From the NCBI GenBank assembly GCA_006226965.1, contig SBGQ01000049.1, forward strand, positions 1 to 38,967: 38,967 nt of DNA. Direction: 5' to 3'. Below the pieces are notes generated by a model. That model had not been told where the DNA came from. It made no database searches and worked only from the letters and a program-made list of their open reading frames with translations. A program made the translations under genes and the position numbers. Origin of the DNA: a bacterium. Its GTDB lineage: Bacteria > Bacteroidota > Rhodothermia > Balneolales > M1805. Of this stretch, positions 25,783 to 33,579 are shown piece by piece (the stretch's first letter is position 1; each line of letters begins with the position of its first letter).

Positions 25783-26901
25783 TTAAAAAGCGGCAGTGAT
25801 TTTAAGTGTTGATCCAAGTCCTGAAATAGTGTAATTGCCGGATTTTATACGTTTTAACTGTAGCTTATGGCCGGATATGATTTTTGATGACAGTGTAGAT
25901 TCGTCTTTAGCAATTTTTCGTTTTCCCAAATGAACAGCTTGAACAGATAAACCTGAGATTTCATTTTCTGATGAATTCCCTTGCACTCCAATAAGCAGTT
26001 GGTCTTTGGCATCGTAAAAGGCTGCAACTAAAGGAATTCCACGAACGCTAGAACTACCAAGTCTTTCTTCATTTGATAGTTGATACACTTGCATTCTGGA
26101 GTCGCTATAAACAGTGATAAAAGATTTGGATTCGTCTAATGTTGCGCCTATTGCGGATTCAACATCAGCTTCAAGTTCAAATTTGGTCGACCCAAGTTCA
26201 TCAATCACTTTGACTAATGATGTTTTTCCGCCGGATTTTGAACTTACTAAAACACTCCACTTACCATCATTCGAATAAGAAAATCCAACAGGACTGGCTT
26301 TGGTTTCATAAGCTAAAGACGTTTTTTGATTTGAAAATGGATTTAATTCAGCCGCAGCTGAGTTTTTATTCCCTTGCATTTGAATCATTGGATTCGTTGC
26401 AATTAATGCATAGCTGTTAGGATTAATACCAAACTCAGATATTTTTTCGCCTTCAGTAGACCCCGCAGTATTGCTTAATGTGTTTATAAAATGTCCGTCC
26501 CAGTTATAGAACTCAAACGTTCCGATTGTATGACGAATCCCAACTAATAACTGATTGGTAAGAAAAATTGCTAAAGATTCATCAGTTTTGTCAAATGCAT
26601 TTACCTTGAATTGTGATAATTCATTTCCGCTTATATCGTACAAATGAATGGTTGCTTGATCCGTTCCATGCAGATACGTAACTAGATGTGTTCTTGATGG
26701 ATTAATAGCCCATAAATCATAAGAAAGCTCTTTGTTATTGCTCAATTTTAAAGAATACGGTTGAACAGATAAATTGCCTTTTTGCAGCTCAATGGTTGAG
26801 TTGCCGGATTGGGAAAGGCTAAGGTTTACTTTTTGTGAAAAACTGATTACAGGTAATAAAAACAATAAAAAAAGAAATTGAACAACAGATTTACGGGTCA
26901 T
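25783..26901 (-). CDS. Secreted protein of unknown function, possible beta-propeller
   Basis: A 372-residue protein with a clear signal peptide: MTRKSVVQ, a hydrophobic core FLFLLFLLPVISF, and cleavage likely after SFSQ. The mature part is rich in beta strands with repeated blocks such as YSNDGKWSVLVSS and LDESKSFITVYSDS, resembling WD40/PD40 propeller blades; that is a pattern impression, not a family match. No lipobox, catalytic motif or C-terminal sorting domain is seen. It is upstream of the sugar transferase on the same strand and divergent from a glycosyltransferase 59 bp away, so it may belong to surface-glycan biology. I do not recognise it. Confidence 0.7.
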   Translation of the reverse strand: MTRKSVVQFLFLLFLLPVISFSQKVNLSLSQSGNSTIELQKGNLSVQPYSLKLSNNKELSYDLWAINPSRTHLVTYLHGTDQATIHLYDISGNELSQFKVNAFDKTDESLAIFLTNQLLVGIRHTIGTFEFYNWDGHFINTLSNTAGSTEGEKISEFGINPNSYALIATNPMIQMQGNKNSAAAELNPFSNQKTSLAYETKASPVGFSYSNDGKWSVLVSSKSGGKTSLVKVIDELGSTKFELEADVESAIGATLDESKSFITVYSDSRMQVYQLSNEERLGSSSVRGIPLVAAFYDAKDQLLIGVQGNSSENEISGLSVQAVHLGKRKIAKDESTLSSKIISGHKLQLKRIKSGNYTISGLGSTLKITAAF

Positions 26902-28165: not shown

Positions 28166-28239
28166 CGGGGCGTAGCGCAGTCCGGTAGCGCATCTGCTTT
28201 GGGAGCAGAGGGTCGCAGGTTCAAATCCTGTCGCCCCGA
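28166..28239 (+). tRNA. tRNA-Pro (anticodon TGG)
   Basis: Acceptor arms CGGGGCG (28166-28172) and CGCCCCG (28232-28238) pair fully, discriminator A. Anticodon stem TCTGC/GCAGA with loop TTTGGGA gives TGG. CCA is not encoded. First of six tRNAs. Confidence 0.96.
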
Positions 28240-28320
28240 CTTCAAATGTTTTTTGAAATCATGAAAATTAAAATCATGGTGGTAGTCCAAGGATTTTCGA
28301 CTTCTACTAGAATCTTTTGA

Positions 28321-28394
28321 GCGCCCGTAGCTCAATCGGATAGAGCAACTGCCTTCTAAGCAGTAGGTTACAGGTTCGATTCCTGTCGGGCGTA
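28321..28394 (+). tRNA. tRNA-Arg (anticodon TCT)
   Basis: Anticodon stem ACTGC/GCAGT with loop CTTCTAA gives TCT. Acceptor GCGCCCG pairs with CGGGCGT, so the first pair is G-U. Discriminator A is followed by CCA (28395-28397), though other tRNAs here do not encode it, so this may be chance. Confidence 0.95.
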
Positions 28395-28406
28395 CCACTT
28401 ACTAAA

Positions 28407-28477
28407 GGCGACATGGCCGAGTGGCTAGGCAGAGGTCTGCAAAACCTTGTACGGCGGTTCGAATCCGCCTGTCGCCT
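28407..28477 (+). tRNA. tRNA-Cys (anticodon GCA)
   Basis: Acceptor GGCGACA/TGTCGCC, discriminator T as expected for cysteine tRNA, anticodon stem GAGGT/ACCTT with loop CTGCAAA. Length 71 nt. Confidence 0.96.
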
Positions 28478-28501
28478 CACGATTTAAAAATAGTTCTAAG
28501 A

Positions 28502-28574
<73 letters not shown>

Positions 28575-28589
28575 CAAAAAAATATTTAT

Positions 28590-28664
28590 GGAGCCTGTAG
28601 CTCAGTTGGTTAGAGCGTCAGATTGTGGCTCTGAAGGTCGTGGGTTCGACCCCCATCAGGCTCC
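28590..28664 (+). tRNA. tRNA-His (anticodon GTG)
   Basis: Anticodon stem TCAGA/TCTGA with loop TTGTGGC gives GTG. Counting back from the conserved T8 (28598) shows a genome-encoded extra G (-1) at 28590, facing C73 at 28664, the identity pair of histidine tRNA. Confidence 0.96.
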
Positions 28665-28684
28665 CATTTTTTACAATTTCCTAT

Positions 28685-28757
<73 letters not shown>

Positions 28758-28760
28758 CAA

Positions 28761-28791
28761 AGCCTTGCAGGAATCCTGTGAGGCTTTTTTT
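28761..28791 (+). terminator. Terminator of the tRNA array
   Basis: AGCCTTGCAGG (28761-28771) pairs with CCTGTGAGGCT (28775-28785) over 11 bp with two wobbles and a 3-nt loop, then seven T. It also lies at the 3' end of the convergent membrane-protein gene. Confidence 0.88.
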
Positions 28792-29299
28792 ATGGTTGTT
28801 TATTCAGTTGTTTGAGCTTTGATCCCAATGGAGTTTGAATAACAACAAAGCCTAAATTTATTAATGGTTCGCCGTATCTACCTAGTAGATCAACTAAATA
28901 AATTCCACTCTTATGAATATAAAGACCGAAAAATAAGAGTAGAATTCCAAGTAAAATCATTCCAATTTGAAGAAAGAAATAACGGAATAAGATTTTATTA
29001 GGATGCTCAGATAGCAAAACAATTATTATGCACCCGAATAGAAAAAACATCCCGCCCATAACTCTAAAGAAGAGTTCTTTATATCCTTGAGAGGTGTTTT
29101 TAATACGAATGTAATACCCTAGGCTATTTCCGGGTCTCATAATGATATCTTGCTCAGTATGGGTGTAATCGAATTGTTCAGCAACCGGATTTAAAACATA
29201 TTGAGCAATTCCAGATCGAATAGGACGCCATACAGTGAAATAGACTCCAATCAGTAAAACAATAAAAAATGATTTTCTAATGATTGGGTTCTTAAGCAT
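28790..29299 (-). CDS. Exosortase-associated multi-spanning membrane protein
   Basis: A 169-residue protein with three clear hydrophobic segments (about 9-27, 72-96 and 104-128) and a possible fourth near 131-150, with a soluble stretch of about 45 residues between the first two. I recognise no catalytic motif. Its ATG overlaps the exosortase stop by 8 bp, so the two are translationally coupled. Bacteroidota exosortases are commonly followed by a small dedicated membrane partner (as with the XrtF and XrtX types), and position and topology fit this. The assignment is by context; sequence alone would leave it unknown. Confidence 0.7.
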   Translation of the reverse strand: MLKNPIIRKSFFIVLLIGVYFTVWRPIRSGIAQYVLNPVAEQFDYTHTEQDIIMRPGNSLGYYIRIKNTSQGYKELFFRVMGGMFFLFGCIIIVLLSEHPNKILFRYFFLQIGMILLGILLLFFGLYIHKSGIYLVDLLGRYGEPLINLGFVVIQTPLGSKLKQLNKQP

Positions 29300-29843
29300 G
29301 AATAGGTTTTACCGTTTCAGATTGTTGCTCGCTTCCCCCATAATTCGCCCAGATTACCCACATAATAAAAATTACAATGTAGAAAATAGCAGTAGTAGAG
29401 TAATCATGCGTGAAGTCAAAGAAATCTGCCCAATAGACTTGAGTGACAGCTAAAATTACGACACGGATTACATTTACTAGATAAATAACTCCAATTCCTG
29501 TAATCAAAAATAAAATTCGCTTTACATTATCTCCAGGATAGGCAACTACAAAACCTATGAATAAACCAATTGCCGATAATCCGTTACATCCATTAACGAT
29601 TTCGATACCGGGCGATTCACCTATCCCAATAATTCTAAATGCAGTGTAGACTTCAGAGTAGCCGATTGCGTGTAAAATCCCGGCAGCAACATCAATAATG
29701 TTAAGTGATAAGGCTTCGTCTACATTTCCGGCGGGTAGAATCCATAAGTCGTAAAAAAAATACCAGACAATATAAATTCCAATTCCTTTTAAGGCGAATA
29801 GATAAACAGGGTTTTTATCAAAAAGAGCTTTAAGTTTATTCAT
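29292..29843 (-). CDS. Exosortase/archaeosortase family protein
   Basis: A membrane transpeptidase-like protein of 183 residues that should cleave C-terminal sorting signals of exported proteins. The three catalytic elements are visible in order: NGCNGL with C86, NVIRVV with R127, and THDYST with H146. The rest is hydrophobic, with about five to six membrane segments (about 15-36, 48-62, 90-103, 108-122, 124-138 and 150-167). The size is that of the short Bacteroidota exosortases (XrtF/XrtX-like) rather than the long proteobacterial ones. It overlaps the CapD-like epimerase gene and its membrane partner by 8 bp each. No protein in this window carries a recognisable C-terminal sorting tail, so its substrates are elsewhere. 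Confidence 0.88.
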   Translation of the reverse strand: MNKLKALFDKNPVYLFALKGIGIYIVWYFFYDLWILPAGNVDEALSLNIIDVAAGILHAIGYSEVYTAFRIIGIGESPGIEIVNGCNGLSAIGLFIGFVVAYPGDNVKRILFLITGIGVIYLVNVIRVVILAVTQVYWADFFDFTHDYSTTAIFYIVIFIMWVIWANYGGSEQQSETVKPIHA

Positions 29844-30825
29844 AGCTAACGGTTGTTTTTAATTGCTCAAGGGATTGATAATAAATAGTTTGTAAAAAAA
29901 GTTTGTAATCCAGTTCGTTGAATTTATCTGGATAACCGCTGAAAGCTAGCCAAGGACTTGTATTCAAACAAGAAAAATCTTGAATTATGAGTTCATTATT
30001 TCTTTTTTGGTTTTTGAGTTCACAGCCCCAATACATCTTTTCTGTAGATTTTTCTCCGTCACGTAATCCTGTAATAGTAACAATGTCTCTACTCATGTTT
30101 TTAGTGTCAAGTTGTTCATGAATAAAATCGATGAGTTTGACTTCTTCGATATGTGAGGGGGTAATCAGGCTAGATGTGACCTCGGAAAAGTCTAACAACC
30201 AATCAAGAATACAGGAATACAAATCATCAATTGATATAACAAATCTAGTACTGTTCACATCAGTTATCGGAATAAAACCCTTTTGCATATAGATTTTTTC
30301 CCATTCAGAGAAAAACGAACCTCGACTCCCGATGATGTTTGGAAGTCTAAAAACGGATGCATGCGAGTGTGTCAGAGAAATATAAAGTTCCACAAGCCAT
30401 TTGCTCAGTCCTAAGACACCGGTTGGTTCTACTGCTTTATCACTCGAAATAAATAAAAACTGAGCCTTATTTTTTTCGGATAATTCGAGTAATTCAATAC
30501 TGGAAATGGTATTTATTCTAAAAGCACGTTCAGGAAATCGTTCGAGTAAACTTACCTGTTTGTGTGCTGCGGCATGAACTACAGTTGAAATCGGATAGGT
30601 ATTAAACAAGGTTTTTAAATAATCGACGTCTGCGATATCTCCTAAAGTGGGAATAAATCGATTACTTTCTTTATAGAGTTCATCGAGTTCATATAAATCA
30701 GTGTCATCGTTGTCTAAACCAATAACTATAGCTTCAGAATGAGTTTGAAGTATAGCTTCGACAAATAACCTGCCAATTGAGCCTGCGGCTCCAGTAACTA
30801 AATAATATGATGGTGCTTGAATCAA
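29836..30825 (-). CDS. CapD/FlaA1-like nucleotide-sugar epimerase/dehydratase
   Basis: An NAD-dependent SDR enzyme of about 329 residues acting on nucleotide sugars for surface glycans. Visible are YLVTGAAGSIGRLF (cofactor site), HAAAHKQVSLLERFPERA (the family's substrate/cofactor segment), SSDKAVEPTGVLGLSK (catalytic region, with SK-ending motif in place of YxxxK as in CapD relatives) and GLRDGEKSTEKMY. The open frame extends to an ATG at 30873, but the first 16 codons of that longer version lie inside the clpC terminator, so I place the start at a TTG (30823-30825), giving an N-terminus of normal length for a Rossmann protein. No Shine-Dalgarno sequence precedes it. It is first in an operon with the exosortase and its partner. 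Substrate sugar unknown. Confidence 0.84.
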   Translation of the reverse strand: MIQAPSYYLVTGAAGSIGRLFVEAILQTHSEAIVIGLDNDDTDLYELDELYKESNRFIPTLGDIADVDYLKTLFNTYPISTVVHAAAHKQVSLLERFPERAFRINTISSIELLELSEKNKAQFLFISSDKAVEPTGVLGLSKWLVELYISLTHSHASVFRLPNIIGSRGSFFSEWEKIYMQKGFIPITDVNSTRFVISIDDLYSCILDWLLDFSEVTSSLITPSHIEEVKLIDFIHEQLDTKNMSRDIVTITGLRDGEKSTEKMYWGCELKNQKRNNELIIQDFSCLNTSPWLAFSGYPDKFNELDYKLFLQTIYYQSLEQLKTTVSYE

Positions 30826-30840
30826 AAAAATGGACAGATA

Positions 30841-30874
30841 AAAAAAATGCGTGATGAACATCTCACCACGCATT
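30841..30874 (-). terminator. Rho-independent terminator of clpC
   Basis: Minus-strand hairpin with perfect 8-bp arms AATGCGTG/CACGCATT (plus-strand 30846-30853 and 30867-30874), extended inward by TGA/TCA, then seven T. It lies 15 nt after the clpC stop and overlaps the longest possible start of the epimerase. Confidence 0.82.
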
Positions 30875-30888
30875 ACATGAATTATTAG

Positions 30889-33450
30889 TTATGCATTTGC
30901 GTGTGATTCCGATTCTTCCTCGCTGGAAGTTTCAGCAACTTCTTTCCATTCAAATGCAAGTCCGTCACGCGAACCGTTTAATTTTATTTTTAGTAGAGAA
31001 CCCGCTTTTTTCGCATCAGTTAGTAGTTCTTCAGCGAGTTGGTCTTCTACATATTTTTGGATAGCGCGTTTTAGTGGACGAGCGCCAAATTTTGGATCAA
31101 ATCCTTTTTCTACCAAGAATTCTTTAGCACCTTTTGTGATTTCAACATCATAACCAATGGCTTTCACTCGAGTGAATAAGCTTTCTGTTAAGTTGTCAAT
31201 AATTTTAAAGATGTCTTCTTTTTCAAGTGGTTTAAATACAATCACATCATCGATACGATTCAAAAATTCAGGATTAAATACTTTAATTAAAGCATCCTGA
31301 ATGGTTGATTTCATTTTAGCGTAATCGAAAGGAGTGTTATCCGAATCAAAACCGATTCCTTTACCGAGGTTTTTAATATCACGAGCACCAACGTTCGATG
31401 TCATGATAATAATCGTGTTTCTGAAATCAACTTTACGACCCAGTGAATCGGTTAAAATACCATCATCTAAAACCTGTAATAATAAGTTGAATACATCAGG
31501 GTGTGCTTTTTCAATCTCATCAAGTAAGACAACAGAATAAGGTTTTCTACGAACTTTCTCAGTAAGAATACCACCTTCTTCATATCCCACATAACCAGGA
31601 GGAGCTCCAACTAAACGAGAAACCGTGAATTTTTCCATGTATTCACTCATGTCAATTCGAATCAGAGAATCATCGCCATTGAAGAGGTACTTGGAAATAA
31701 CTTTTGCCATTTCTGTTTTACCGACACCTGTTGGACCTAAGAAAATGAACGAACCGATTGGTCTGTTCGGGTCTTTTAAGCCTGCGCGAGTTCGTTGTAT
31801 AGCTCTTGTCAGTTTTTCGATAGCTTCCGGTTGGCCAATAACTTTAGTTGAGAGCTCTTCACGCATTTTGAGCAATTTATCGCCTTCGTTTTGTGTGATT
31901 TTGGTAACAGGTATACCAGTCATCATACCAACTACAGAAGCGACATCTTCTTCATTTACATCGTAAATAACTTCTGAACTTTCTTTTTCCCAGACTTTTT
32001 GGGCGATTTCGAGTTCTTCAATCAAACGTTTCTCACGGTCGCGCAAACGAGCAGCCTCTTCAAAACGTTGTTTTTTAACCATCGAATTTTTTTCTTGGCT
32101 CGTTGACTCGATTTCTTCCTCGAGTTTTACAATATGCTCAGGAACAGTAATGTTGGATAAATGGACACGAGCACCGGCTTCATCCAATGCGTCAATAGCT
32201 TTATCCGGTAAAAAATGATCCGTAATGTAACGGTCAGTTAATTTCACGCATGCTTCGATTGCTTCATCAGAATAATGAACACTATGATGTTTTTCGTATT
32301 TCGCTTTAATGCGATTTAGGATTTCTACCGTTTCTTCAATTGAAGTCGGTTCGATCATGATTTTCTGGAAGCGACGTTCTAAGGCACCGTCTTTTTCAAT
32401 ATACTGGCGGTATTCGTTTAGTGTAGTTGCACCGATTGCTTGAATTTCACCACGCGCTAAAGCGGGTTTCAACATATTGGAAGCATCAAGTGAGCCACTG
32501 GCTCCACCAGCTCCAACAATGGTATGGAGTTCATCAATAAACAGAATGATGTTTGGAGTTTTCTCCAATTCACTCATAACTGCTTTCATTCGTTCTTCGA
32601 ATTGTCCACGGTATTTGGTGCCGGCAACTAAAGCCGCTAGGTCTAGCGCCACAACACGTTTATCAAACAATACTCGGGAAACTTTTCTCTGAACAATTCG
32701 CAAGGCTAAACCTTCGGCGATTGCAGTTTTCCCTACACCCGGTTCACCTATAAGAACAGGATTGTTCTTTTTTCTGCGGCTTAAAACCTGTGCAACACGC
32801 TCAATTTCTTTTTCACGACCAACAATCGGATCTAATTTACCATCTTCTGCAAGTTTGGTTAAATCTCTACCGAAGTTGTCTAATACCGGAGTTTTAGTCT
32901 TTTCCATTTTTTTAGATCTGATATTACCGGCACCTTGTGGTTCCGGTTGTGATGAAGTGTATTCGGCTGATAAGGTAGATTCAGGTTCGTTTGTACTTGG
33001 TGCACTAGAAGATTTTCCGGATATAATCATATCCAATTCTTCGCGTACGCCTTCGTAATTCACATTAAACTGATGCAAAATCTGTGCAGCAATATTCTCA
33101 TCGTCACGCAATAGTGACAACAGTAAATGTTCGGTTCCTATTGTGTCACTTTTATAAAGTTTTGCTTCTAAATAGGTAATGCGAAGTACTTTCTCTGCCT
33201 GTTTCGTTAAAGGTACATGTCCTACTTTTATGGTTGATCCGGTTCCTCGAACCGTATCTTCTATAGTCTTTTTTAATTTCGCTAAATCGCAGCGTAAATT
33301 TTTCAGGATTTTAACAGCAACGCCATCACCTAAGCGCACGATTCCTAACATGAGGTGTTCTGTGCCTATATAATCGTGACCTAAACGAAGCGCTTCTTCA
33401 CGGCTGTATTGAATCACATCTTTAACTCTGCTCGAAAAATTACCTTCCAT
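30889..33450 (-). CDS. clpC: ATP-dependent Clp protease ATP-binding subunit ClpC
   Basis: A Hsp100 unfoldase that feeds proteins to ClpP. The 853 residues, counted from the ATG at 33448-33450, begin [20 protein letters not shown], the standard ClpC N-terminus; an upstream TTG would add 18 unrelated residues. Domains: two Clp-N repeats (about 1-145), AAA-1 with Walker A GEPGVGKT (235-242), a middle region with UVR-like [17 protein letters not shown] (adaptor binding), AAA-2 with GPTGVGKT (572-579), and an IGF tripeptide in GKGIGFDS for docking on ClpP. Together these favour ClpC over ClpB or ClpA. It ends at a terminator. A 24-bp imperfect palindrome lies 20 nt upstream of the ATG and may be its operator. 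ClpP is not in the window. Confidence 0.94.
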
Positions 33451-33469
33451 GGGTCTTTCTTTAGTGGTT

Positions 33470-33493
33470 GAAACTGGTTGATATACCAATTTC
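33470..33493. promoter_or_regulatory. Imperfect palindrome upstream of clpC, candidate operator
   Basis: GAAAcTGGT and ACCAaTTTC form matching half-sites around a 6-nt centre, 20 nt upstream of the clpC ATG. It does not fit the CtsR direct-repeat site. The position suits a repressor site in the leader; nothing proves it. Confidence 0.3.
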
Positions 33494-33579
33494 TGGAAAT
33501 TCAACGAATGTTTTTAACATCTTGTTGAAAGTAATACGGGTGAGGTTTAAACGCAAGTGAATACTTTAAACTCAAAGAA

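Follow-up and report, generated by a model that had tools for sequence, protein, structure and literature searches.

An exosortase of the XrtX family and a small membrane partner are encoded in the 38,967-nucleotide stretch of DNA that was analysed (the window), and nine candidate substrates, very short precursors of the PID-CTERM family, are encoded elsewhere in the same genome. Each of these predicted precursors lies in a same-strand run with a gene for a large secreted protein with a terminal T9SS type A tail. XrtX probably releases or conjugates short peptides that are produced together with T9SS cargo, which suggests that the exosortase and T9SS pathways may cooperate, although these routes of surface building are treated as separate. 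The precursors form a compact candidate substrate set for an exosortase of the Bacteroidota, which makes the question of exosortase substrates and their acceptors in this phylum directly testable. Through them, the genes for candidate exosortase substrates are physically linked to those for T9SS cargo and, in relatives, to a sugar pathway of the type known from T9SS anchors.

The window locus consists of three overlapping genes on the reverse strand. These encode a short SDR enzyme of the CapD/PseB type (Polysacc_synt_2, 345 aa, 29836-30873), the exosortase (183 aa, 29292-29843) and the membrane partner (169 aa, 28790-29299), whose homologues lie 3' of XrtX in relatives. By the ORF coordinates, the SDR enzyme and exosortase genes share 8 bp (29836-29843), as do the exosortase and partner genes (29292-29299). 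The run is bounded by a gene for a ClpC-type ATPase (30889-33504), recognized by reading of the translation, and by an opposite-strand cluster of six tRNA genes (Pro, Arg, Cys, Glu, His and Glu, with tRNA-Glu occurring twice; 28166-28758 of the window, forward strand) that adjoins the partner gene. An earlier note on this DNA had described an epimerase, an exosortase with C86, R127 and H146 and a small membrane protein, with 8-bp overlaps at both junctions, and the ORFs and translations bear this out. The module span that it gave, 28790-30825, holds at its start, but position 30825 is an internal TTG and the longer ORF begins with an ATG at 30873. An identical 8-bp overlap at the XrtX/partner junction was found in the relatives L050, L053, L059, L064, L072, L108, L110, L111 and L140, which come from two collections with some genomes present in both.

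The exosortase was scored against subfamily models, a check proposed earlier, and by this measure it is XrtX (NF046081, 190.1 bits, curated cut-off 170). The scores for XrtF (TIGR04128, 73.5 bits), XrtY (61.7 bits) and EpsH (TIGR02602, 27 bits) were below the cut-offs of 90, 160 and 105.55, respectively, and Pfam Exosortase_EpsH was matched at 43.2 bits against 25.7. XrtX is the single match to the exosortase/archaeosortase model TIGR04178 at E<=1 in the 3.78-Mb assembly. The Cys-Arg-His triad (C86, R127 and H146) is invariant in an alignment of ten sequences, namely the window exosortase and nine relatives with 50-58% identity. The earlier note had let its reading depend on retention of the triad in homologues and on the existence of a substrate; the aligned homologues keep the triad, and candidate substrates are present. 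XrtX and PID-CTERM are already named families, and the window exosortase and nine tails of the genome score above their curated cut-offs (NF046081 and NF046080), whereas the window partner is unmatched by the corresponding partner model and the precursors lie beside T9SS cargo genes. The locus resembles that of XrtF and its membrane protein (TIGR04128 and TIGR04127), in which a small membrane protein follows the exosortase with an 8-bp overlap (L142 and L144), but the window exosortase falls short of the XrtF cut-off. The PEP-CTERM/EpsH system belongs to the same superfamily and has the same tail layout (motif, helix and basic end); it differs in the low TIGR02602 score of the window exosortase and in that the substrates here are micro-precursors.

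The partner has no Pfam match, and its best NCBIfam match is at chance level (E 0.12). It was rejected as a member of the XrtX-associated membrane protein family (NF046082, cut-off 75 bits), which does not match it and whose best place in the genome scores 14.6 bits on another contig. Profile alignment with XrtF partners gave nothing useful, one side being shallow, with three close XrtF partners. An AlphaFold2 model (pLDDT 87) predicts a long helix, three strands and then helices, and comparison of this fold with the PDB gave no convincing match (best Foldseek E 0.35; best VIA-align Z 5.4 at an rmsd of 8.6; both uninformative). The partner family was found in 55 genomes, 52 of which also hold XrtX (Fisher 3e-14, ancestry uncorrected), and the partner gene lies <300 bp from XrtX in 30 genomes. 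As judged from gene order, the conserved pair is XrtX with the membrane partner, and the co-encoded membrane partner postulated earlier is real.

The SDR enzyme matches PF02719 at 161.9 bits against a cut-off of 20.2. Its best NCBIfam match is PseB (TIGR03589), at 97.4 bits and under the cut-off of 407.75, and the nearest solved structure is 5bjw (WlaL); it is not a Wbp enzyme. Of 38 named XrtX loci, 35 have Balneolales-type titles (Balneola, Gracilimonas, Rhodohalobacter, Fodinibius and Balneolaceae) and three are from Aestuariivivens. No relative of the epimerase was found in the 35 Balneolales loci (tblastn, E<=1e-15; several loci are short), so its pairing with the exosortase is not stable, and a conserved module of this kind was rejected. 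The link between epimerase and exosortase drawn in the earlier note survives in that nucleotide-sugar enzymes recur beside XrtX, whereas the epimerase neighbour itself does not recur.

At least one gene of the WbpA, WbpB, WbpD or WbpE type is present in 10 of the 35 loci, and 25 show none. All four types lie beside XrtX in L110, L111, L131 and L140, and all four are also present in L127, where WbpB is cut by the contig end. The best solved relatives of the WbpD-like and WbpB-like proteins are 3mqg and 3q2i, respectively, both of which we take to be enzymes of the Wbp pathway, and WbpE is among the better, but not the best, solved matches of the WbpE-like aminotransferase. In L110 and L111, a WbpE-like aminotransferase gene is followed by XrtX with an 8-bp overlap, as at the junction of the SDR enzyme and XrtX in the window. 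Among 41 genomes with both genes, 13 have WbpD and XrtX <4 kb apart on one strand, and by presence alone the two genes are only weakly tied (p=0.009). The Wbp count in the named loci and the genome-wide counts for WbpD and the partner are not independent because they come partly from the same genomes (L110 matches G048 at 100%). Linkage of predicted Wbp-type genes to XrtX refers to relatives; in the window genome, a search for WbpD gave a match (C135:403-879) near a contig end and on a different contig from XrtX.

The genome contains nine matches to PID-CTERM (NF046080) above the cut-off of 26 bits, and the tenth match is far below it. The earlier note had reported an exosortase with no substrate and had advised a search of the proteome for tails made of a motif, a helix and a basic end; the genome-wide search with PID-CTERM yielded these nine precursors, and the first claim was overturned. 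Its further statement that sorting tails are absent from the proteins of the window is true for PID-CTERM and T9SS type A tails, none of the PID-CTERM matches and none of the 77 T9SS tails of the genome being on the window contig (C33); the T9SS tail model matched one window protein (25783-26901) weakly, internally and below the cut-off, at 18.2 bits. None of 14 control genomes had PID-CTERM above the cut-off, and 9 had sub-cut-off matches at a lax E-value.

The nine predicted precursors are 56-69 aa long from the likely start, and all are encoded on contigs other than that of the window. A typical precursor has a signal peptide ending in A, followed by QPPGMPGAPSQA, PIDGG, a hydrophobic helix and a K/R tail. 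The peptide reads QPPGMP[G/Q]APSQA in five of the nine, and the rest are QPP-rich variants. Across the order, the matches listed include 99 precursors (96 once identical ones are merged), drawn from nine own loci, 29 loci of the order-wide search and 60 fetched regions, of which better-scoring ones were mostly taken first. A simple pattern for an AxA-Q-like site was found in 82 of the 96 listed precursors; in 78 of these 82, the segment that starts at Gln and stops just ahead of PID has 11-14 residues, and Pro makes up 34% of such segments. The peptide appears to be under amino-acid constraint, with a pairwise pN/pS of 0.46, against 0.22 for the tail; synonymous sites are saturated. Micro size is not absolute for PID-CTERM proteins because a 965-aa protein with many hydrophobic segments in G256 (L226) ends in a PID-CTERM tail above the cut-off; this protein presumably resembles those of the XrtN system.

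A T9SS tail ends <600 bp upstream, on the same strand, of eight of the nine own precursors, and the ninth opens a run on C171 in the order precursor, cargo, precursor, cargo. On C109, one cargo gene is followed by two precursors. In this test any same-strand ORF of at least 60 aa ending <600 bp upstream was counted, and the precursor at C109:15753 has the second precursor in between. Seven of the nine large genes were scanned, and Por_Secre_tail was above the cut-off in all seven products, some of which contain laminin-G, FG-GAP or alpha-amylase domains. The genome as a whole has 77 T9SS tails at E<=0.01 (74 above the cut-off) and a PorU match of 1007 bits against 420; PorU joins T9SS cargo to the linking sugar in P. 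gingivalis. A translational fusion of cargo and precursor was considered and rejected, as the precursors have their own signal peptides.

The same arrangement was found across the order, where 76 of the 96 listed unique precursors, in 34 of 43 genomes, have a same-strand T9SS tail upstream. By family, the numbers are 8 of 9 (f1), 58 of 70 (f3), 4 of 11 (f4) and 6 of 6 (f5); two loci cut at a contig end (L094 and L160) were scored as lacking the tail, and the profile used for T9SS tails derives from 30 tails of the window genome, some of which adjoin precursors. The same test applied to 513 genes in the named XrtX loci gave two positives, both in L132. Outside the order, a T9SS tail lies upstream of 14 of 28 precursors (12 by profile and 2 by eye, the latter being the two in L238), in five family labels (f12, f16, f24, f29 and f38), and an exosortase gene is directly beside 6 of the 28. 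This set leaves out a spurious 244-aa ORF (L239) and the 965-aa protein; one of the by-eye matches in L238 and the match in G142 (L257) had no ATG-started ORF in the scan. In L281 (G213), a T9SS cargo gene is followed after a 24-bp gap by a PID precursor, which overlaps by 4 bp with an XrtX-like exosortase gene, which in turn overlaps by 11 bp with an ORF of 132 aa. The cargo scores 28 bits against 23 for TIGR04183, the precursor 40.8 against 26 and the exosortase 133.8, below 170, and the 132-aa ORF has no family match.

XrtX and PID-CTERM also co-occur at the level of genomes. Among 116 genomes of the order, 52 have both, 17 have XrtX only, 8 have PID-CTERM only and 39 have neither (Fisher p=4e-10, ancestry uncorrected); several of the drafts are incomplete. 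Of 392 phylum genomes, 61 have PID-CTERM and 102 have XrtX-like proteins (E<=1e-20), 46 of the latter above the cut-off. Of the 17 genomes of the order with XrtX only, four were matched by a profile of the full precursor (A5), and the other 13 yielded nothing. One match (L252) was dropped for an in-frame stop; the remaining three, in L250 (E 1e-8), L251 (E 4e-4, weak) and L253 (E 0.007, weak), are micro-genes of the same kind that encode a similar Pro-rich peptide and have a drifted motif; all three come after a T9SS tail, as judged by eye. Their peptide likeness is partly selected because A5 contains the peptide, but the T9SS neighbour is not so selected.

In the proposed mechanism, the window would supply the processing enzyme XrtX and the membrane partner of an XrtX/PID-CTERM system whose substrates are the micro-precursors. 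Signal peptidase I would cut the N-terminal signal and expose Gln, and XrtX would cleave at the PID-CTERM region, giving a Pro-rich peptide of roughly 12-16 residues; both cleavages are those expected from family knowledge. The peptide might then be joined by XrtX to an envelope acceptor, for example an amino-sugar glycan of the Wbp type, which is a guess. We infer that the peptide is used at the surface together with the cargo. It would most likely be a generic component, produced in step with T9SS cargo and consumed at the cell surface, because most precursors are found just downstream of T9SS cargo genes and different cargo is accompanied by similar peptides. A cargo-specific chaperone is unlikely for the reason that similar peptides adjoin quite different cargo proteins. 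The several precursor copies beside cargo genes are best read as a generic part consumed in proportion to cargo. Coupling of precursor and T9SS is not obligatory because no T9SS tail was found at 20 of the 96 listed precursors of the order (in f4, only 4 of 11 have one) or at 14 of the 28 outside it, and because most cargo is without a precursor (nine precursors and 77 tails).

A different use of the same peptides, as secreted signals, is distinctly unlikely. Signal peptidase and XrtX would in that case free short, possibly pyroglutamate-capped signals, and the T9SS neighbours would give regulated expression only. The precursors indeed contain little beyond a signal peptide, 11-14 residues and a sorting tail, and Gln after an AxA-like site fits the Q-rule of Bacteroidetes, by analogy with which a signal peptidase I site followed by Gln could lead to pyroglutamate (PMC5837995). 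According to the abstract of that paper, however, the rule does not extend to the whole FCB group, and its accessible text makes no mention of Balneola, Rhodothermus or Salinibacter (PMC5837995). Nine paralogues with similar peptides in one genome also fit a structural part better than distinct signals. Slightly less likely still is classical exopolysaccharide sorting, in which XrtX would tether the precursors to a polysaccharide made by the nearby sugar genes and T9SS would have no role. Nucleotide-sugar genes do lie beside XrtX in the window and in the Wbp-bearing loci (10 of 35), and exosortases are described as being mostly associated with EPS clusters (PMC10936215), but this reading leaves the 76 of 96 listed precursors 3' of T9SS tails unexplained. 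By the least likely reading, duplication and recombination would spread a 3' cassette of T9SS tail and PID precursor, and adjacency would reflect this spread and not joint function. It draws on several copies with identical PID-CTERM scores in some genomes (e.g., four in G048) but is at odds with the own-genome copies, which vary in signal peptide and gap and resemble one another more in peptide and tail, with adjacency in nine family labels of diverged sequence (f1, f3, f4, f5, f12, f16, f24, f29 and f38) and with the exosortase gene within the same run in L281.

Release or conjugation of peptides made together with T9SS cargo can be compared with two other systems. In F. johnsoniae, deletion of xrtF or its partner gives the whole phenotype row, in coarse categories, of a porU or porZ deletion, and the same row is common to deletion of a hypothetical protein and of an aminotransferase assigned to rhamnose/fucose synthesis (PMC10936215). 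These deletions are the experimental support found for this reading, and they concern XrtF, which is related to XrtX; the search for exosortase substrates was named in that study as future work (PMC10936215). Formation of the sugar joined to T9SS cargo in P. gingivalis requires WbpA, B, D and E (PMC7468200). T9SS anchoring with a Wbp/Vim linking sugar (P. gingivalis and T. forsythia) is matched here by PorU and T9SS tails in the window genome and by the WbpA/B/D/E-type genes beside XrtX in L110, L111, L131 and L140, but the P. gingivalis pathway, as described in the accessible text, has no exosortase as part of it (PMC7468200). A broader proposal is tentative and somewhat unlikely: X- and F-type exosortases of Bacteroidota might be part of T9SS cargo anchoring, with XrtX linking the Pro-rich peptide and an amino sugar of the Wbp type into a unit that is produced in proportion to cargo and incorporated into the surface anchor or matrix by which the cargo is retained. 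If so, the substrates missing for XrtF would likewise be micro-precursors encoded next to T9SS cargo. In the literature searched, the term PID-CTERM did not occur and exosortase substrates were not linked to T9SS cargo genes, which is weak evidence of absence, subscription journals being mostly outside the search.

Several further arrangements were observed. In G003 and G011, a partner-family gene lies about 2.2 kb from WbpD and XrtX lies elsewhere. In L132, a T9SS-tail gene is immediately upstream of XrtX and its partner (1892-2955). XrtX is also near T9SS cargo in four loci outside the order (L286, L287, L288 and L291), which were left out of the counts because T9SS genes are frequent. In G146, a PID-like precursor (L238) lies between a T9SS-tail gene and an exosortase that is nearer XrtY (115.4 bits, cut-off 160) than XrtX (59 bits). 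The same genome encodes, at L237:2006-2269 on the reverse strand, a protein with the PID-like tail PFDGG and a lipoprotein-type signal (LLFSC) in place of the usual signal peptide.
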